Shown: piece after piece, positions 5,756 to 26,839 of the stretch
How the letters are laid out: each line of letters begins with the position of its first letter
How positions within the stretch are numbered: the stretch's first letter is position 1
Source of the DNA: a virus
DNA: 31,383 nucleotides
Strand: one strand, 5' to 3'
IMG/VR virus record: IMGVR_UViG_3300042938_001000
Coordinates: 1-31,383 of that record
Translations under genes and position numbers: made by a program
Notes under the pieces: generated by a model
The model's database searches: none
Told to the model about the DNA's origin: nothing
What the model saw: only the letters and a program-made list of their open reading frames with translations

Positions 5756-5788
5756 GGTGGTGCAAGCAGTGGGCTTGCTTGCACCACC
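5756..5788 (+). terminator. Perfect 13-bp hairpin downstream of the capsid gene
   Basis: GGTGGTGCAAGCA (5756-5768) and TGCTTGCACCACC (5776-5788) are exact reverse complements with a 7-base loop. The hairpin lies 14 bases after the capsid stop. There is no T-tract, so it is either a weak terminator, which would explain high capsid but lower downstream expression, or an mRNA 3'-end stabiliser. Its presence argues against starting the next gene at the upstream in-frame ATG at 5757. Confidence 0.65.
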
Positions 5789-5816
5789 ACCTAACCCGAT
5801 CAACCAAAGGACAAAC

Positions 5817-6620
5817 ATGCAAGAGACTTTTGATCACCCTGGACAAGTCCTGCTGGCGTTCCCGTCAACAGGCCACGACATCTCAACACGGTTCATGCGT
5901 TCATTTTGGGAGCTTGACGTTTGGGATCGTGAACGTGCGGTGCAAGTGTGGGAAGCGCTTGATTGCCCTGAGTCACCGAACCCGATTGATCTGCGCCTAC
6001 TGCACAATTACGTTGCGCTCGAGGCCACAGCAAATCTTGCGAAGGCTCGCAACCGTTTGTGTGACGAGTTCTTAAAGACGTACACCGATGCAGAGTGGTT
6101 GTGGTTTGTTGATACTGACATGGTGTTTGAACCGCAGTTGATGCATCAGATGGTTGCACGAGCGGTCGAACATGACATCAAGATTCTTGGTGCCCTGTGT
6201 GTGATCCTCACCGCCGACGGCGTGATCCCTACGCTTTTTGTCGAAAATTCTTTGACTTGCACACAAGTGATGTTGGATTGGGCACCAAACCAGCTGGCAG
6301 AGGTTGCAGCTACTGGTACTGGTTGCCTGCTCATTCACCGCAGCGTGTTGCAACAGATGTTCGATCAGAGTGGTGGTAGTACTAACTGCTGGTTTGGTTT
6401 CGATATTCGCTTTGGTGATGATGGTTCTGAGTGGGCGTTGGGCGAAGATGTGAGTTTCTGTTTGCGTGCGGGCGAGCAGGGCCACAAGGTTTACGTTGAC
6501 ACGACTGCGCATGTTGGGCATCACAAAGGCGGCAGGGTTTACTGGCCGTCAGACACAAAGACAATGGGTGTGACACCGCCTGAAGAACCACGCACCACGG
6601 ACGACAATGCTAGGACCTGA
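5817..6620 (+). CDS. GT-A fold glycosyltransferase (GT2-like)
   Basis: The 267-residue protein likely transfers a sugar from a nucleotide-sugar donor. It has a DTD metal-binding motif at residues 99-101 (WFVDTDMVF), GTGCLLIHRSV at 166-177, a GED motif at 209-211 (the candidate catalytic acid), and an HVGHHKG segment at 232-238 typical of this phage family. There is no membrane segment, so it is probably cytosolic. ATG at 5817 is chosen because AAAGGACA precedes it and the upstream extension would read through the hairpin. It sits directly after the capsid gene and overlaps the next gene by 14 bases. Capsid-linked glycosyltransferases are known to modify virion proteins in some mycobacteriophages; the acceptor here is unknown. 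Confidence 0.8.
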   Translation: MQETFDHPGQVLLAFPSTGHDISTRFMRSFWELDVWDRERAVQVWEALDCPESPNPIDLRLLHNYVALEATANLAKARNRLCDEFLKTYTDAEWLWFVDTDMVFEPQLMHQMVARAVEHDIKILGALCVILTADGVIPTLFVENSLTCTQVMLDWAPNQLAEVAATGTGCLLIHRSVLQQMFDQSGGSTNCWFGFDIRFGDDGSEWALGEDVSFCLRAGEQGHKVYVDTTAHVGHHKGGRVYWPSDTKTMGVTPPEEPRTTDDNART

Positions 6621-7416
6621 TGCCAGCAGGTACATCCTTGCTGGTCGTGGAGTGCCGGTGGCACGACCGTTCAACCTGAGATGGTTGCTCCCGACCATCT
6701 GCAAGGATGATCTGCGCAGATGGCGTGCAGTGTGGGTTACGTCATGGGTTGTTGCAGCGGTTGGCATGTTGTGGTGGTGCTCGGATCTTGGTTTGGAACG
6801 TGCGGCAGCTGCAGCAGTGTTGTTGCTGGCATTGCCTGGAGTGTGGGGCCCGCAAGTTGTTCGGCCTATTGGCGTTGATCTACCGGCGATGGCTGTGGCG
6901 ATCATGGCTGTTGCTTGTTTCGATCATGGGCTGTGGCCTGTAGCGGTGTTGCTGATTTTGGTTGCCGCTTCTATCAAGGAAACATCACCTGTGTTTGCTG
7001 CGGTGTGGGCATGGCATCCGATCATGCTTATCGGTTTGATTGTGCCGGCTGTTGTGTGGTTTGTACGCAAACCACAACTTGACCAGGTGACCGCACAGCC
7101 TGTGTTGCGCAGAGTGTATGAACATCCTTTCAAGACTGCGATGGAAGCTCATCGTGGGCGGTGGCGTGACGCTTGGTTGATGGTCGCACCGTGGGGTGCA
7201 ACACTCGCAGCTTTGTACCACCCGTCGTGGCAGACGCTTCTGATACTCGTTCTAGCGTATGCACAGCTGTTGGTTGCTACTGACACGGTTCGCCTGTTGC
7301 ACACGGCTGCTGGGCCTGTGATGGCCATTGCTGCAGCCCAAGTGTTACCAGTCCAGTGGCTACCATTGATCTTGATTGCACACTTCTTCTGGTGGCGGAA
7401 ACCTGAGGTGATCTGA
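6607..7416 (+). CDS. Polytopic membrane protein, GT-C glycosyltransferase-like
   Basis: The 269-residue protein has about seven or eight hydrophobic segments starting near residue 42. Its N-terminus, GPDASRYILAGRG...RPFNLRWLLP, and the internal SIKETSP followed by a hydrophobic stretch resemble bacterial GT-C-type membrane glycosyltransferases, which use lipid-linked sugars (DxxRY near the first loop; KE after a helix). It is shorter than full GT-C enzymes, so it could be a minimal or divergent member or a transporter-like partner of the adjacent GT-A enzyme. A polytopic membrane protein in the middle of a phage head operon is unusual. Start and stop overlap both neighbours, indicating coupled translation. 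The family call is a resemblance, not a firm match. Confidence 0.55.
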   Translation: MLGPDASRYILAGRGVPVARPFNLRWLLPTICKDDLRRWRAVWVTSWVVAAVGMLWWCSDLGLERAAAAAVLLLALPGVWGPQVVRPIGVDLPAMAVAIMAVACFDHGLWPVAVLLILVAASIKETSPVFAAVWAWHPIMLIGLIVPAVVWFVRKPQLDQVTAQPVLRRVYEHPFKTAMEAHRGRWRDAWLMVAPWGATLAALYHPSWQTLLILVLAYAQLLVATDTVRLLHTAAGPVMAIAAAQVLPVQWLPLILIAHFFWWRKPEVI

Positions 7417-7898
7417 TGCATCACGCAGTTCTCGAATGGGTGCAACGGTGGGTGCCAGCAACGCCTTGCAGCGTGCTGGATTGTGGCGGGCGTGACATCA
7501 ACGGCAATCCTGAATACCTATTTGAACACGCAACCTTTGAAGTGGTTGACCTTGTGCCGGCACCAGAGGTCACATGGGTTGGCGACATCCTCGACTACGG
7601 CAACGCACAACCGTTTGATGTGGGCTTGTATCTTGAGGTTGCTGAGCACACACCTGATTGGCCGCTACACATCGCACACATGAAAAACTTGCTTGATCAT
7701 CGCAAGGGCCTGCTGATCTTCACCGCAGCCTGCTTTGAACGTGCACCACACTCAGCGTCTGATGGTGGGCTGTTACAACCTGACGAGTACTACTTGAACG
7801 TAGACCCCGACAACCTTTCTGTAATCCTCACACGCAACTTTGCAAAGCATGTGATTGATGTGCAGGGTAATGATGTGAGGGCTGCAGCATGGAGATGA
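7416..7898 (+). CDS. Class I SAM-dependent methyltransferase
   Basis: The compact 160-residue Rossmann methyltransferase has motif I SVLDCGGRDING at residues 19-30, an acidic strand end FEVVDL at 41-46, VGDILDY at 55-61, and an acidic post-strand motif YLEVAEHTPDW at 72-82. The later PHSASDGG and NVDP segments are shared by a family of small methyltransferases found in actinophages. Motif I has Cys where hydrophobic residues are usual. The ATG overlaps the stop of the membrane protein gene. With the two upstream genes it forms a three-gene sugar-modification cassette, suggesting methylation of a glycan, although a protein or small-molecule substrate cannot be excluded. Confidence 0.75.
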   Translation: MHHAVLEWVQRWVPATPCSVLDCGGRDINGNPEYLFEHATFEVVDLVPAPEVTWVGDILDYGNAQPFDVGLYLEVAEHTPDWPLHIAHMKNLLDHRKGLLIFTAACFERAPHSASDGGLLQPDEYYLNVDPDNLSVILTRNFAKHVIDVQGNDVRAAAWR

Positions 7899-9508: not shown

Positions 9509-10549
9509 GTGCGTATCCTTGTTGTCCACCCCGGTCCTAATTTCAGTGTGCAAGATGTGCATGATGGTTGGGTTGAGGGTTTCGAGCAGTTAGGCCACGA
9601 GGTTCAGCAGTACAATCTTGGTGACCGTCTCACATGGGCCAGCGTTGCGCATCTGGGTATGGATGACGGCACCTTTATCAAAGCCTTTCCGAAAACAGAG
9701 AACGTGTATTCCTTTGCGATCAGTGGCCTGCCACAGGCTGCGTTGTACTGGTGGCCACAACTCATCGTGTTCATCAGCGGGTTCACGGTTGACCCGCAGT
9801 TCTTAGAGGTTTGCCGTGGTCGTGGTATTAAAACCGCTTGTGTGATGACCGAATCACCGTATGAGGAATCACGGCAGTTGTTGATCGCACCGCACTTCGA
9901 TGCTGTGGCGTTGAACGATCCGACGAACATGGGTCAGTATGCGACGTTGACAACAGCGGTTTACACACCGCACGCATACCGGCCTGACATCCACTTTGAA
10001 GGCGAAGCACACGAGGACTACCTGAGCGACTGTGTGTTTGTTGGTACGGGCTACCCAAGCAGGGTTGCGTTCCTCGAGCGGTGCAACTTTGATGGTATTG
10101 ATCTTGCGTTGGCGGGCAACTGGCAGAACGTGCCAACCATCCTGGCTGATCGTGTTGTGCATGATCTTGAGGATTGCATTGATAACGCTCAGACCGCAGA
10201 GTTGTACCGTGGCGCTAAAACATCGTTCAACATTTACCGTACTGAAACCAACGGTGATGTGGTTGATGGTTGTGATGGTTGGTCTGTTGGGCCTCGTGAG
10301 ATCGAGCTTGCAGCATCTGGCACTTGGTTCGCTAGGCAGTCTCGTGGCGAATCCGATGAGCTCTTTCCGATGCTCCCTACTTTTAACAGTCCTGAAGAAC
10401 TTGGCGAGCTAATACGCTGGGCTCTTGAGAATCCCGTTGAGCGGCAGATCGCTGCGCAGCAGGCAAAACGAGTGGTCGCAGATCGCACGTTTCCAAATAA
10501 TGCCCACACGTTGCTTGCATCGTGCGGCCTAGTGAAAGAAGAAAGCTAA
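9509..10549 (+). CDS. GT-B fold glycosyltransferase, CgeB-like
   Basis: The 346-residue protein begins with MRILVVHPGPNFSVQDVHDGW, a first Rossmann strand and loop. It continues through LGHEV, FISGFTVDP and VYTPHAYRPDIH, and its C-terminal half has SFNIYRTETNGDV, SVGPREIELAASGTW and FNSPEELGELIRWALENP. The C-terminal half matches the Glyco_trans_1_2/CgeB-like donor-binding domain, including the P-R-x-x-E-x-x-A-x-G core. The GTG start abuts the preceding TGA and the stop overlaps the major tail protein ATG. A glycosyltransferase wedged between neck and tail tube genes will be expressed late with virion proteins, pointing to virion or late envelope glycosylation. Confidence 0.82.
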   Translation: MRILVVHPGPNFSVQDVHDGWVEGFEQLGHEVQQYNLGDRLTWASVAHLGMDDGTFIKAFPKTENVYSFAISGLPQAALYWWPQLIVFISGFTVDPQFLEVCRGRGIKTACVMTESPYEESRQLLIAPHFDAVALNDPTNMGQYATLTTAVYTPHAYRPDIHFEGEAHEDYLSDCVFVGTGYPSRVAFLERCNFDGIDLALAGNWQNVPTILADRVVHDLEDCIDNAQTAELYRGAKTSFNIYRTETNGDVVDGCDGWSVGPREIELAASGTWFARQSRGESDELFPMLPTFNSPEELGELIRWALENPVERQIAAQQAKRVVADRTFPNNAHTLLASCGLVKEES

Positions 10550-17148: not shown

Positions 17149-18087
17149 ATGGGATACAAGTGGGGACCATCTGTTACTGTCGGGACCACAGCGTATGGGA
17201 TCACTTTTGGGTTTGGTTCCTTGTGGGTTGCAAATGGTGTGAGTGGCACAGTTTCTCGTGTTGACCCCACAGCGTTGACTGTGACTGCAACGATTGCTAC
17301 GGGTACTGGTGGACCGTTTGCAATCACGTCTGCGTTTGGTTCCGTTTGGGTAGGCCATGCAAGAACTGGCGGTCAAGCAGTATCACGTATCGACCCTACG
17401 ACCAACACCATCACTGCCACAATCAACGTTGATTTTGCTTACAACCTGACGTTTGACGCTAACTATATTTGGGCAACCAATTACGTTACGCCATCTGAGG
17501 TGTTACGTATCGACCCGTCAACAAATACGATTACTGGCACATTCACCAAAACGGTAGCAGCCTACGGTTTAGCTGCCGGGGGTGGCAGCGTCTGGGTTGC
17601 AGATGGCAGTGCGGGCACAGTCATCCGTGTGAACCCTTCGACGCTTGCAACAACAGCAACGATTACTACGTCTATCTTTCCGCAGTATTTGGTTTACGCC
17701 TTTGGTGATGTGTGGGCAGGCGATACAAGCACATGCATTGTGGAACGGATTAGCCCTGCAACAAACACAGTCACCGCAACAATCTCAACACCTTCGCTAA
17801 GTCTGGCCTATCCTTTTGCGATAACCGCAGATTCAACAGCGGTCTGGCTTGCCAGTAATAGCACTGCAACTAACAACAACGGTGTAGGACGGATCGACCC
17901 TGCAACAAACACGTTTACCGATGTTCTCTACACGCTTCCCAACGTGTTCCCTACTCCTAACCCGCAGCCTCGTGGCCTTGGCGTTGATGGCACAGACAAA
18001 CTGTGGGTTTCTTATTTGAATGAAATTAACCGTGTTGATGAAATTGCTGTTGCGTTGGGTTGGGTGCGTGGCCATGCGTGGGGGTGA
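17149..18087 (+). CDS. Seven-repeat beta-propeller tail protein, candidate receptor-binding protein
   Basis: Almost the whole 312-residue protein is built from seven similar units of about 41 residues. Conserved tryptophans sit at 26, 67, 108, 149, 189, 233 and 286 within G-S-x-W-V-A, each followed by x-R-(I/V)-D-P-x-T-N-T-x-T-A-T-I. This is the pattern of YVTN/NHL/SMP-30-like seven-bladed propellers. There is no signal peptide. It lies between the tail tip gene and the endolysin gene, where receptor-binding or tip accessory proteins occur. Propellers of this type bind ligands or proteins at the central pore; no catalytic residues can be assigned. Confidence 0.8.
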   Translation: MGYKWGPSVTVGTTAYGITFGFGSLWVANGVSGTVSRVDPTALTVTATIATGTGGPFAITSAFGSVWVGHARTGGQAVSRIDPTTNTITATINVDFAYNLTFDANYIWATNYVTPSEVLRIDPSTNTITGTFTKTVAAYGLAAGGGSVWVADGSAGTVIRVNPSTLATTATITTSIFPQYLVYAFGDVWAGDTSTCIVERISPATNTVTATISTPSLSLAYPFAITADSTAVWLASNSTATNNNGVGRIDPATNTFTDVLYTLPNVFPTPNPQPRGLGVDGTDKLWVSYLNEINRVDEIAVALGWVRGHAWG

Positions 18088-18090
18088 AAG

Positions 18091-18942
18091 ATGAGAGACA
18101 CAGGGATCGCTGACAGGTTGCGTGGCGCTGGTCTTGTGGTTGAAGAACAACCAGGGTGGCAGACTCGTGGCTCAGCGCTGTTTGCGCCAAGGGCTGTGAT
18201 GTGGCATCACACAGCATCAGCAATGAACCGCAACCTTCCAAGCCTGAACATTGTGACCAACGGGCGTGCAGACCTTGCAGGCCCGCTCTGCCATGTGCTT
18301 ACCGGTCGTGATAACTGCAACGTGGTGATTGCAGCAGGCAGGGCAAATCATGCTGGTGCGGGCAGTTGGAACGGCAGCAGTGTTGGCAACAGCGCTTATT
18401 GGGGCGTGGAAGTAGAGAATGTTGGCACGGTGGCTGAACCGTGGCGGCCCGACCAACTGCAAAACGTCGCAGAGGTCACCGCAGCGCTCATCAGCTACAA
18501 CCCTGCACTCGTCGCTGATTGCTGCATGCACAAGGAGTGGGCACCGTCACGCAAGATTGACATGCACACGATCAGCGGCAATGAGATGCGTGCTCGAGTC
18601 ATGCAACTCTGCATCGGCACACCAGCACCACCGGAACCAGAACCAGCACCGCCTGCACCACCGACAGTTGACCTTGCAGCAATCGCAGCAGGCATAGCGG
18701 CAGCATCCAAACAGATCGTCAAACAAGGCACCAAAGGCGACGCTGCAAAGTGGGCGCAAGCCCTACTCAACAACAAGCTTGATGGTCCAGACCTAAAGGT
18801 AGATGGCAACTTTGGGCCAGCATCAGTGGCAGCAGCTAAACGCTTCCAAACAAACGTCAAACGGTTCTTCAAACTCTCATCCAAGCAGATGCCAGTAGAC
18901 GGAATCATTGGGCCTGCAACTTGGTACTGGCTAACAAAATGA
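18091..18942 (+). CDS. Endolysin: N-acetylmuramoyl-L-alanine amidase with peptidoglycan-binding domain
   Basis: The 283-residue enzyme cuts the amide bond between muramic acid and the stem peptide. The Amidase_2 domain (about 28-175) has MWHHTAS with zinc ligand H39 or H40, and HKEWAPSRKID with H147 and D157 as the other likely ligands and K155 as a catalytic lysine. A Pro/Glu linker (178-192) leads to a PG_binding_1-like domain (about 205-283) containing LKVDGNFGPASVAAAKRFQ and VDGIIGPATW. There is no signal peptide, so release needs the adjacent holin. The lysis genes are embedded among tail tip genes. Confidence 0.93.
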   Translation: MRDTGIADRLRGAGLVVEEQPGWQTRGSALFAPRAVMWHHTASAMNRNLPSLNIVTNGRADLAGPLCHVLTGRDNCNVVIAAGRANHAGAGSWNGSSVGNSAYWGVEVENVGTVAEPWRPDQLQNVAEVTAALISYNPALVADCCMHKEWAPSRKIDMHTISGNEMRARVMQLCIGTPAPPEPEPAPPAPPTVDLAAIAAGIAAASKQIVKQGTKGDAAKWAQALLNNKLDGPDLKVDGNFGPASVAAAKRFQTNVKRFFKLSSKQMPVDGIIGPATWYWLTK

Positions 18943-20854: not shown

Positions 20855-21138
20855 TGGAAAACACGTACACCGATGGGGTGCTTGTCCAAAGCAGAGAAGA
20901 TCACGGCGATGGCACAGCTACAGTCACAGACCACACCACTAACCCACTTACGGTCACACTGCTCACAGGGCTTGCAACCTACGAACCTTGGGTTGCACCA
21001 CCGGCAGCAGAAGTTGTGGCTGCACAAGCGATCTCAGATGAGATAACCATCAGGCTTGACCCTGCTGGGACTATCCCAGAGATCAAAGCAGCAATCACTG
21101 ATGGTCTTGCCGCTGCAATCGTTTCCCTCGGCGGCTGA
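20854..21138 (+). CDS. Small fibre-associated protein of unknown function
   Basis: The 94-residue acidic protein begins MENTYTDGVLVQSREDHGDGTATVTDH and has an Ala-rich C-terminus. Its ATG overlaps the fibre stop (TAATG), so it is probably co-translated. It could be a fibre chaperone or small fibre subunit; no family is recognised. Confidence 0.5.
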   Translation: MENTYTDGVLVQSREDHGDGTATVTDHTTNPLTVTLLTGLATYEPWVAPPAAEVVAAQAISDEITIRLDPAGTIPEIKAAITDGLAAAIVSLGG

Positions 21139-21145
21139 TGCGATC

Positions 21146-21502
21146 GTGTTCGGGGCGCTTGAAACCATCCAAACAATAAGCATCACCATCGGAATCCTCG
21201 TTGGTGTCGCATCACTCATCGTTGCACTCTTCGCAATCTTCGAAAAGATCACAGGGTTCACCGCACGGTGGGCAGGCCGACAAGTAGCAATAGGCGTGCA
21301 ACCGTTACACGACTCGATTGAAGAGCTCGCAACATACACACGGCACCATCTCGGACCGAACGGTGTGACCATGCCGTTACACCACAAGGTCAACTTGCAA
21401 ACAGAATCGTTGGCTGAACTCCAAGGCCGTGAATGGAAACGCAAAGATTTCAACGCATGGCTAGACCGCCTTGAAAGCGAAACAATAGACCCCCCAGCTT
21501 AA
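21146..21502 (+). CDS. Single-pass membrane protein at the end of the late operon
   Basis: From GTG 21146 the protein has 118 residues: a transmembrane helix at about 9-32 (TISITIGILVGVASLIVALFAI) and then a soluble, partly helical C-terminal part (LHDSIEELATYTRHH... ESLAELQGREWKRKDFNAWLDRLE). It resembles small TM-plus-coil proteins in actinophage lysis regions and could act as a second holin or lysis regulator. The longer in-frame alternative, ATG 21101, lies within the upstream gene and has no ribosome site. The start is uncertain. Confidence 0.55.
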   Translation: MFGALETIQTISITIGILVGVASLIVALFAIFEKITGFTARWAGRQVAIGVQPLHDSIEELATYTRHHLGPNGVTMPLHHKVNLQTESLAELQGREWKRKDFNAWLDRLESETIDPPA

Positions 21503-21550: not shown

Positions 21551-21598
21551 GAACCCCCACATCTTGTGCGCAAGCCCACTGCGCCGATGTGGGGGTTC
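21551..21598. terminator. Bidirectional terminator between convergent genes
   Basis: GAACCCCCACAT (21551-21562) and ATGTGGGGGTTC (21587-21598) are exact complements. The 24-base loop contains a second small stem (GCGCA at 21568-21572 with TGCGC at 21580-21584). It lies between the end of the rightward late unit and the end of the leftward lipoprotein gene, exactly where a two-way terminator is expected; TTTC follows on the + strand. Confidence 0.85.
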
Positions 21599-21619
21599 TT
21601 TCATGTCCGCACACAAGTT

Positions 21620-22045
21620 TTAACAGCCCGTACCGTTCCACGCTGAAGACCAACCACTGTTCACCGTGTACACGGCAACAGCATCTTGCACCCACGGTGG
21701 TGCCGAGCGTGCCGAACCGTAACCGCTGTGACCTGCTCGAGCAGACATCGTGCGCCAAGTACTATCAAGGTACTGATACGCACCACTAGCGGTACTCACA
21801 GGGTTCTTCGCCTGATAGTTCCCACCCGACTCATGCCGGCGCACGCATGCGAGGAATCCGCCAGGAGGGTTATGCGCTGGCGCAGCTGTTGCCGCTTGCG
21901 CTTGCAGGTGTGCTTTCACAGCGGCCTGCTCATCAGCGTTCATTGTGCCGTATAGCGCTATTTCTTCTGGTGTGCAGGATGCTGCAAAGAGTAACGGGAT
22001 TGTAACGGCAAACAGCAGTGCCGCAGCCTTTGGTGTGCGTATCAT
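21620..22045 (-). CDS. Rpf-like lytic transglycosylase lipoprotein
   Basis: The only leftward gene encodes 141 residues. The N-terminus is a signal peptide (MIRTPKAAALLFAVTIPLLF) followed by AASC, a plausible lipobox with C24 as the lipidated residue. A linker of ~40 residues leads to a C-terminal lysozyme-fold domain: FLACVRRHESGGNY (E72 the expected catalytic acid), SGAYQYLDSTW at 88-98, and PPWVQDAVAVYTVNSGWSSAWNGTGC. This matches the resuscitation-promoting-factor/transglycosylase-like domain of Actinobacteria. C67 and C141 could form a disulfide. ATG at 22045 is chosen because AGGAG lies 8 bases upstream and the signal peptide starts there. Terminators and a palindrome bound it, so it looks like an independent moron-type unit acting outside the host membrane. 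Confidence 0.85.
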   Translation of the reverse strand: MIRTPKAAALLFAVTIPLLFAASCTPEEIALYGTMNADEQAAVKAHLQAQAATAAPAHNPPGGFLACVRRHESGGNYQAKNPVSTASGAYQYLDSTWRTMSARAGHSGYGSARSAPPWVQDAVAVYTVNSGWSSAWNGTGC

Positions 22046-22075
22046 ATTGATTGTCTCCTGGTCGGGATATGGAAC

Positions 22076-22099
22076 AAGCCCACGCTGATGCGTGGGCTT
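22076..22099. terminator. Perfect 10-bp hairpin upstream of the lipoprotein gene
   Basis: AAGCCCACGC (22076-22085) and GCGTGGGCTT (22090-22099) pair perfectly around a TGAT loop. A-rich and T-rich flanks are short. On the minus strand it falls in the leader of the lipoprotein gene, so it could insulate that gene, attenuate it, or protect its transcript. Confidence 0.55.
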
Positions 22100-22181
22100 C
22101 ACCATTTACCCTACTCACATTCGGTTGGCTGGCGCACGCATACCCGTCCAAAAAGAAATTTGAGAAATGCCACACCAAACC

Positions 22182-22208
22182 TTGCAACTCGTGCAACAAT
22201 GGTTGCAC
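22182..22208. promoter_or_regulatory. Operator-like palindrome GTGCAACAATGGTTGCAC with extra half-site
   Basis: GTGCAAC (22191-22197) and GTTGCAC (22202-22208) form a 7-bp inverted repeat with a 4-base spacer. A third TTGCAAC lies at 22182-22188. The 9-base spacing between the two direct half-sites and the location upstream of the early operon suggest a dimeric repressor/activator site; an RNA hairpin is the alternative. Confidence 0.45.
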
Positions 22209-22259
22209 GCCACCGAAACGGGGCGTACCACCACACCACCACAAAGGACAAACAACACG

Positions 22260-22577
22260 ATGAATGCAATCACCGCAGGACTCCTGCACAACCTTAGGCT
22301 CGAGGATCAGATCCTCACCTACAACGAACAACTCGCCAACATGAAACAACTTGGCATGGCGTTGCGTGAAGCAAGCGAAGACACACCACAACACAAAGCA
22401 ATCCACGATCTGCTCTGGGGTCTTGACCAAGGAGCACGAGACTCGGCAAACCAGATCGTTGACGACCTTCACGATTCAGGCATCAACGCCAGTTCCGCAG
22501 CTGGTCACAAAGGTGACTTCACCATCGAGCTCATCACGCCGACCGGCACACACCTGATCGCAGGGTGCCAACTATGA
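22260..22577 (+). CDS. Helical protein of unknown function, first gene of the early operon
   Basis: From ATG 22260 the product has 105 residues, mostly charged and predicted helical up to about residue 75, with a beta-type C-terminus (FTIELITPTGTHLIAG). The start is supported by AAAGGACA upstream within a C/A-rich leader and by the change from low-complexity to normal sequence at this codon. As the first gene after the divergent control region it could be an early regulator or anti-host factor, but no domain is recognised. Confidence 0.6.
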   Translation: MNAITAGLLHNLRLEDQILTYNEQLANMKQLGMALREASEDTPQHKAIHDLLWGLDQGARDSANQIVDDLHDSGINASSAAGHKGDFTIELITPTGTHLIAGCQL

Positions 22578-26095: not shown

Positions 26096-26412
26096 TGGGC
26101 GCACGTGAAGCGTCCGCACGCACCATGCGAGCAATCAAAGCAACCGTGTACCAAGAACTAGAAGAGATCGACTTCTACCACACGAACGCAAAGATGGTCG
26201 ATGTGCGCATGCGTGGCAACGATGTAGGCGACATCAGTTTCAGTATCGGCAAAGCCGTGTTCTTCTTGGAAGGCATCGGCACCAAAACCCAGAAGCTTGC
26301 CGCTATCCGTGAGATAGCAGCAGCCATCGTTGTTGCCGCTAACGACCTCGAGCTCGAACTGCGTAAGGCCGAACCTGCTGAACCAGCAGAGCAACTGCAG
26401 TTAGGTGAGTGA
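26095..26412 (+). CDS. Unknown early protein, paralogue B
   Basis: The 105-residue protein is related along its length to the protein at 23198-23476 (NAKMV, SFSIGKAVFFLEG and AAAIVVAANDLE elements). It has a longer C-terminal tail rich in Glu, Pro and Ala. The pair brackets the exonuclease, ssDNA-binding and resolvase genes, suggesting duplication with divergence inside the replication module. Function is unknown. Confidence 0.65.
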   Translation: MGAREASARTMRAIKATVYQELEEIDFYHTNAKMVDVRMRGNDVGDISFSIGKAVFFLEGIGTKTQKLAAIREIAAAIVVAANDLELELRKAEPAEPAEQLQLGE

Positions 26413-26839
26413 CCTCATGCGCCTACCAGTACGGGCTGAGATGATCGACCACCTCACCATCATCGTCGAAGACTGCAACAAACAAGCCCACTGGCGTAAA
26501 CACGCTGCGTGCCGTGGCATGGACACCAACCTGTTCTACCCAGAAGCAGGATACAACGGGCACAGGAAACAACGGCAAGCGCAAGCAGTGTGCGCAGGAT
26601 GCCCAGTACGAGACGAATGCTTACAAGCTTTGGGTGCGTACAGGGGTGGGATAGTCGGCGGGCAAACAACAGCGCAACGCACCAAAGGCCACATGATCAA
26701 AAGCAACCTCGAACTGTTGCAGCTACGTGACCACATCATCCGCACAGAACCCCTAGAAATCGCAGCGCACGACCTTGGCATAACACCGTTATCACTAAAA
26801 AAACATATACACCGACACCCCGAAGGAGTCGCAACATGA
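26405..26839 (+). CDS. WhiB-family regulator 1
   Basis: The 144-residue protein has a WhiB core with four cysteines expected to hold a [4Fe-4S] cluster: C36 (HAACRGMD), C63 and C66 (VCAGC) and C72 (DECLQAL). The usual G-(V/I)-W-G-G turn is GIVGG at 82-86, so tryptophan is replaced. The tail contains an HTH-like IAAHDLGITPLSLKKHI. WhiB proteins bind the principal sigma factor and, in mycobacteriophage TM4, WhiBTM4 represses host WhiB2. GTG at 26405 overlaps the previous gene; ATG at 26417 is an alternative start. Confidence 0.85.
   Translation: MSDLMRLPVRAEMIDHLTIIVEDCNKQAHWRKHAACRGMDTNLFYPEAGYNGHRKQRQAQAVCAGCPVRDECLQALGAYRGGIVGGQTTAQRTKGHMIKSNLELLQLRDHIIRTEPLEIAAHDLGITPLSLKKHIHRHPEGVAT

Follow-up and report, generated by a model that had tools for sequence, protein, structure and literature searches.

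A probable lipid-anchored Rpf-fold transglycosylase in environmental phages and its relatives in one Acidimicrobiia family

Free-standing secreted proteins with Rpf-like or transglycosylase domains recur in phages, and the Tgl protein of Kayvirus has been studied experimentally (PMC7150955). Tgl, which is encoded by the phage and secreted, is a lytic transglycosylase of host-like type, and its core lysozyme motif is of the Rpf type. Its promoter is active early and independently of the main endolysin, and the protein is lytic in S. aureus once nisin mimics the holin (PMC7150955). Mycobacteriophages use Rpf-like or other wall-cutting motifs within their tape-measure proteins, such as motif 1 of Barnyard and motif 3 of TM4, the latter of which aids the infection of stationary-phase cells (PMC1796659). 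The Annadreamyvirus phages of Streptomyces encode a free-standing secreted Rpf-like protein (e.g. Blueeyedbeauty gp19), which is annotated only as a "hydrolase" or as hypothetical. That a phage can encode a secreted transglycosylase resembling those of its host has already been published; therefore, the first-pass annotation of the present DNA, which presented one of its genes as an undescribed phage-host manipulation system, went too far in this respect. As far as the partial literature shows, what is new is that the Rpf-type protein has a predicted lipid anchor, that it recurs in several phage lineages and that it is tied to one Acidimicrobiia family. Our literature search returned no publication about Rpf lipoproteins that phages encode as free-standing proteins, which is weak evidence because its coverage was partial.

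The protein studied here resembles Tgl in that it is free-standing, host-like and probably secreted, carries the conserved glutamate in a transglycosylase domain behind a signal peptide (recognized by eye and by pattern), and is encoded apart from the main endolysin. Tgl has its own promoter, and the present gene has its own strand and leader. Tgl differs in that it is of the staphylococcal IsaA/SceD type, is cleaved by type I signal peptidase, is not a lipoprotein and is experimentally muralytic. A tblastn search gave a partial match to a staphylococcal phage "transglycosylase". The Annadreamyvirus protein shares the N-terminal signal-like segment and the Rpf-like domain; however, it lacks the lipobox cysteine, has a long charged linker and is encoded in a neighborhood of ribonucleotide reductase (RNR), glycosyltransferase, tRNA and ThyX genes. 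The tape-measure motifs belong to the virion tail and act at entry, whereas the lipoprotein carries a signal peptide and is no part of the tail. The secreted accessory transglycosylases described in Kayvirus would have a lipid-anchored counterpart in this enzyme if it is active.

Setting and conservation of the gene

The window, i.e., the whole stretch of DNA that was analyzed, comprises positions 1–31,383 of the 31,383-base virus record IMGVR_UViG_3300042938_001000. Genes for the terminase, portal, protease, capsid, tail and amidase endolysin run rightward and are followed by replication genes, including those of an exonuclease and a primase. One gene runs leftward, between the gene of a small membrane protein and the next rightward gene. 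The longest open reading frame of the latter is 22167–22577, but a start at 22260 is likelier from its ribosome site and its relatives. The amidase endolysin gene is separate from the leftward gene and lies 2.7 kb from it. The small membrane protein had no match in the family searches, and its role as a holin is only possible. The coordinates of the features are collected in Table 1.

Table 1. Features at and near the lipoprotein gene, in positions of the window
Feature	Position	Strand	Basis
Coding sequence, including the stop, of the 141-residue lipoprotein; Rpf-type lytic transglycosylase domain	21620..22045	-	Open reading frame, dN/dS, conservation
Predicted signal peptide, residues 1–23	21977..22045	-	Hydrophobic stretch, then invariant Cys; by eye and pattern
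Codon of Cys24, the +1 cysteine predicted to carry the lipid	21974..21976	-	Invariant in the 16-member alignment
Catalytic domain, residues 57–141, Rpf fold	21623..21877	-	PF06737; AF2; Z 11.6 to RpfB 4emn
Codon of Cys67, which may form a disulfide with Cys141	21845..21847	-	Invariant, 32 sequences
Codon of Glu72, glutamate at the catalytic position	21830..21832	-	Invariant; aligned with Glu of RpfE CESGGNW
Codon of Cys141, C-terminal residue	21623..21625	-	Invariant in 32 sequences
Conserved 5' leader with 10-bp hairpin (22076–22099) and AGGAG ribosome site	22046..22115	-	Almost unchanged across 6 relatives
Convergent 3' hairpin, 13 perfect pairs, at the junction of the late operon and the lipoprotein gene	21551..21598	.	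Folding against shuffles
8-bp inverted repeat CGTGCAAC/GTTGCACG, candidate operator	22190..22209	.	Divergent intergenic region
Endolysin, Amidase_2 and peptidoglycan-binding domain	18091..18942	+	phrog_880 E 8.5e-50; PF01510
Small membrane protein, possible holin, convergent neighbor	21056..21502	+	Hydrophobic segment in translation

The leftward gene starts with an ATG whose first base is at 22045, with AGGAG 9 nucleotides upstream, and its stop ends at 21620. The initial description of a single minus-strand gene amid a rightward genome was borne out. Five other contigs from this phage group (L028, L029, L038, L039 and L040) retain the gene in synteny, and in all five it is the sole gene oriented opposite to its neighbors. 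Where synonymous sites were not saturated, dN/dS against relatives was 0.14–0.26, and the gene is under purifying selection. Its own strand, its leader and its 3' hairpin would suit a moron, yet the gene is present in all six relatives of the group. A moron in the lysogen-expressed sense would be conjectural, as the families searched included no match to an integrase or repressor.

Two hairpins accompany the gene. The convergent 3' hairpin had a z-score of −6.4 on the plus strand, where 0 of 200 shuffled sequences were as stable, and −3.6 on the minus strand. In L039 and L040, it carries one compensatory change from C-G to G-C and one added pair. The compensatory change supports selection on the stem, although the covariation is modest, with one common change in two relatives. 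The hairpin had been called a bidirectional terminator. The structure itself is real, but a bidirectional terminator is no more than putative, since the U-tract is weak on the plus side (TTCTTTC) and absent on the minus side, and a terminator scan did not flag the hairpin. The 10-bp hairpin (z −4.5) had been regarded as a boundary of the gene. It lies within the gene's own 5' leader and is kept in all six relatives; therefore, it is a leader element and not a boundary. Conservation of the leader with this hairpin exceeds that of the coding sequence. A promoter scan yielded no site for the lipoprotein gene with confidence, so its autonomy is something that we infer, and the gene may be transcribed independently. 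An Rfam search of the window gave no match.

The putative exported protein and its Rpf-fold domain

The protein begins with MIRTPKAAALLFAVTIPLLFAASC, followed by TPEEIALYG, and continues into a domain that contains CVRRHESGGNYQAKNPVSTASGAYQYLDSTW and ends with WNGTGC. In the models, the mature protein consists of a short helical linker and the Rpf domain. The signal peptide and the lipobox-like AASC described at first are present. The AASC box is a weak match because of Ala at position −3, yet Cys24 is invariant in the 16-member alignment of the main clade. Other phage lineages have a canonical LAAC or VAAC, and the PROSITE-style lipoprotein pattern was matched in relatives. In free-standing viral relatives at a greater distance, the N-terminus still resembles a signal, but the cysteine is absent. 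The protein is free-standing and probably secreted and lipid-anchored, with Cys24 as the putative site of lipidation.

The domain was assigned by family, by fold and by its key residues. The domain alone scored 29.2 bits against PF06737 and passes the cut-off of 27, while the full-length protein scored 26.7, just below it. The named RpfC equivalog (NCBIfam NF046107) was ruled out, as the score was 13.5 bits against a required 200. A full-length AF2 model was poor (pLDDT 70), and Foldseek matches obtained with it were not significant. A domain-only model, built from an alignment of 32 relatives, reached a pLDDT of 95.7. Its closest structural matches were RpfB (4emn; Z 11.6, 1.9 Å over 75 residues), 5e27 and 3eo5 (both 11.2), RpfC (10.7) and RpfE (10.6). 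Lower values were obtained for phiKZ gp144 and an insect lysozyme (both 8.1), as well as for further lysozymes of the C-type (near 7.5). Foldseek gave the domain model only modest E-values, none better than 5e-3, but each of the eight highest-ranked matches was an Rpf protein. The comparison with Rpf and lysozyme folds that had been proposed for this protein therefore places it nearest to the Rpf proteins.

The lytic transglycosylase domain with a catalytic-type HESGG, as first described, was also confirmed. The domain has the motif RHESGG, which includes Glu72, and GTGC at its C-terminus. Cys67, Glu72 and Cys141 do not vary in the main alignment of 16 members, nor do they vary in a 32-member alignment of the domain only, which contains viral and actinobacterial relatives. 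The conservation of the glutamate, on which the first reading depended, thus holds. The domain is predicted to cleave peptidoglycan. Compared with RpfB, RpfC and RpfE of M. tuberculosis, the phage protein has the same fold, an ESGGN-type motif and the Glu at the catalytic position, although the identity is 22–28%; it has a lipoprotein anchor and none of the extra domains of RpfB. The tuberculosis Rpfs have a Cys directly before the Glu, while that of the phage protein is five residues before it; therefore, the disulfide, if formed, would be differently placed. We are highly confident that the molecule is an exported Rpf-fold transglycosylase lipoprotein.

A single-protein scan of genome contigs gave no match, and an alignment scan of them gave only three distant Acidimicrobiia genes; a genome-wide profile search was needed to reveal the chromosomal relatives. 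In a sample of 198 genomes of Acidimicrobiia (the class of the genome of L025), matches better than E 1e-30 occurred only in four genomes, all of which belong to one family. A profile search found a close chromosomal relative in 22 of the 33 genomes of this family, and all 20 chromosomal homologues inspected have a lipobox. The chromosomal lipoproteins (e.g. L058, L059, L060 and L085) have the same order of parts, i.e., lipobox signal, short linker and C-terminal domain, and share the domain pattern CVRxHES...GAYQ...STW...W-GTGC, with profile E-values down to 3e-41. They differ in that many have a longer linker with a DxNxDGxI-type motif, and they are not phage-borne. A gene read from its sequence as superoxide dismutase was nearby in three of the four chromosomal loci examined, which speaks for a chromosomal rather than a prophage-borne lipoprotein gene there.

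One genome of this family includes a 6.7-kb contig with the capsid gene of the window phage at 69% identity, together with portal, protease and glycosyltransferase genes syntenic with those of the window phage. Even if this contig stems from a free phage that was binned with the genome, which is possible, it supports the link to the host, and exchange between phage and host is likely. The tail protein of the window phage had no match in the 33 genomes, a result that is uninformative alone; the capsid did match. In a tree, the phage lipoproteins grouped with the chromosomal ones (90/88), and the main phage set formed one supported group (98/86). With its 95 columns, the tree cannot tell in which direction the gene was transferred. 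Because the gene is broadly distributed on the chromosomes of the family, host-to-phage transfer is the natural reading, and phages most likely acquired the gene from such hosts.

Possible roles during infection

An alignment-guided scan of viral contigs detected at least 322 relatives, from which the best 80 were kept and read by inspection. Among these best 80, about 24 are short lipoproteins (several of the loci are near-duplicates). Another 10 or so are also short, in most cases with a hydrophobic segment at the N-terminus, and in roughly 45 the domain lies within a longer protein. The expectation that phage Rpf domains usually reside in tape measures thus stands insofar as these 45 lie within longer proteins, but it does not cover the lipoproteins and the other short proteins. 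The search for free-standing Rpf-like lipoproteins in other phage contigs, suggested by the first-pass annotation, found them in several unrelated lineages. The type occurs in the window's group, in L030–L037 (where the endolysin reads as M15-like from its sequence) and others, in L041–L043, in L044, in L045 and in L119–L122. Standing alone in the opposite orientation characterizes the gene in the window's group; L041 and L042 have further genes on the same strand after the lipoprotein gene. The lipoprotein connects one Acidimicrobiia family with several environmental phage lineages that are unrelated to one another, and it offers a concrete, testable case of phages that repeatedly carry a host wall-remodeling lipoprotein.

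The best explanation, to which we give about an even chance as a whole, is that the Rpf-fold lipoprotein serves as a pre-positioned accessory wall hydrolase. The host would export the protein, and Cys24 would anchor it on the external side of the cytoplasmic membrane, where its domain would cut the glycan strands of the peptidoglycan of the infected cell using Glu72. Made from its own transcript, it would be held there before lysis. When the membrane is depolarized, it would cooperate with the amidase endolysin, as has been proposed for Kayvirus Tgl. This role is favored by the gene's own strand and leader, the separate amidase endolysin, the adjoining small membrane protein and the host-type export. 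Tgl is the best precedent and suggests that the lipoprotein helps to weaken the wall of the infected cell; by this analogy, a part in lysis is plausible. However, the gene is opposite to the late operon, so that its co-expression with the endolysin is hypothetical, and in the unrelated phage groups it is not clearly beside lysis genes. The distant secreted Rpf-like genes of L023/Annadreamyvirus and of an environmental phage contig (L020:2676-8169) are instead near ribonucleotide reductase, glycosyltransferase and ThyX genes.

This last setting, near genes of nucleotide metabolism, favors the main rival, in which the protein is a wall-remodeling or growth-sustaining factor that, like an Rpf, keeps a slow-growing infected host metabolically active or stimulates its neighbors. 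The Rpf fold and the chromosomal relatives in the host family are in line with it. Phage WC1 provides a parallel, as four host rpf genes of Rhodococcus are up-regulated throughout infection and the authors suggested that dormancy is prevented (PMC10986025). However, resuscitation has been shown for other Rpf proteins and not for the lipoprotein type, and a lipid anchor would retain the protein on the producing cell, which makes an action on neighboring cells unlikely. We regard a growth-sustaining role as possible but rather doubtful. Its narrower form, in which the lipid-anchored Rpf relative keeps slow-growing or dormant Acidimicrobiia active during infection as a dedicated viral counter to dormancy, is unlikely.

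A surface lipoprotein might also alter the wall or meet incoming tail proteins and thereby block DNA entry by related phages. Ltp-type phage surface lipoproteins do so in Streptococcus (PMC3952083), and an Ltp-like gene has been proposed for Cutibacterium phages (PMC11480721). However, Ltp proteins carry two repeat HTH domains and not an enzyme fold (PMC11480721), and a Pfam scan of the window protein found no HTH family. Glu72 and the whole active-site motif are conserved, although exclusion by binding would not need them, which makes Ltp-type exclusion less likely. Among the families searched, there was no integrase or repressor and no sign of lysogeny in the phage. Superinfection exclusion therefore appears improbable. 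That the gene is a passenger, recently acquired from a host without a selected function in the phage, would fit its close chromosomal relatives and an adjoining intergenic region that takes other inserts, but this reading is strongly disfavored and very improbable given the dN/dS values, the fact that six syntenic genomes have kept the gene together with a conserved leader and hairpin, and the presence in several unrelated phage lineages.

Other features of the phage genome

The inverted repeat in the divergent intergenic region (CGTGCAAC-AATG-GTTGCACG), together with a nearby TTGCAAC, is similar in most relatives. The intergenic region by the lipoprotein gene looks like an acceptor site for accessory genes. 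In L029, a DNA methylase-like open reading frame (L029:6713-7873) is inserted beside the lipoprotein gene on the same strand, and L028 has a different small insert.

Just before the endolysin, positions 17149–18087 encode a beta-propeller-like protein with matches to PF16819 and Glu_cyclase_2. It is only 29–53% identical in four relatives, while the flanking genes are mostly >90% identical; this may be a protein that evolves fast and acts in receptor binding or host range. Among the head and head-tail genes (5757–7898 and 9509–10549), there are two glycosyltransferase-like genes together with one membrane protein gene and one methyltransferase-like gene; glycosylation of a surface or of the capsid is a possible function of this set. 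The phage also encodes a WhiB-like regulator (26405–26839; PF02467), and WhiB-like proteins are present in the unrelated L041–L043 phages, which carry the same lipoprotein.
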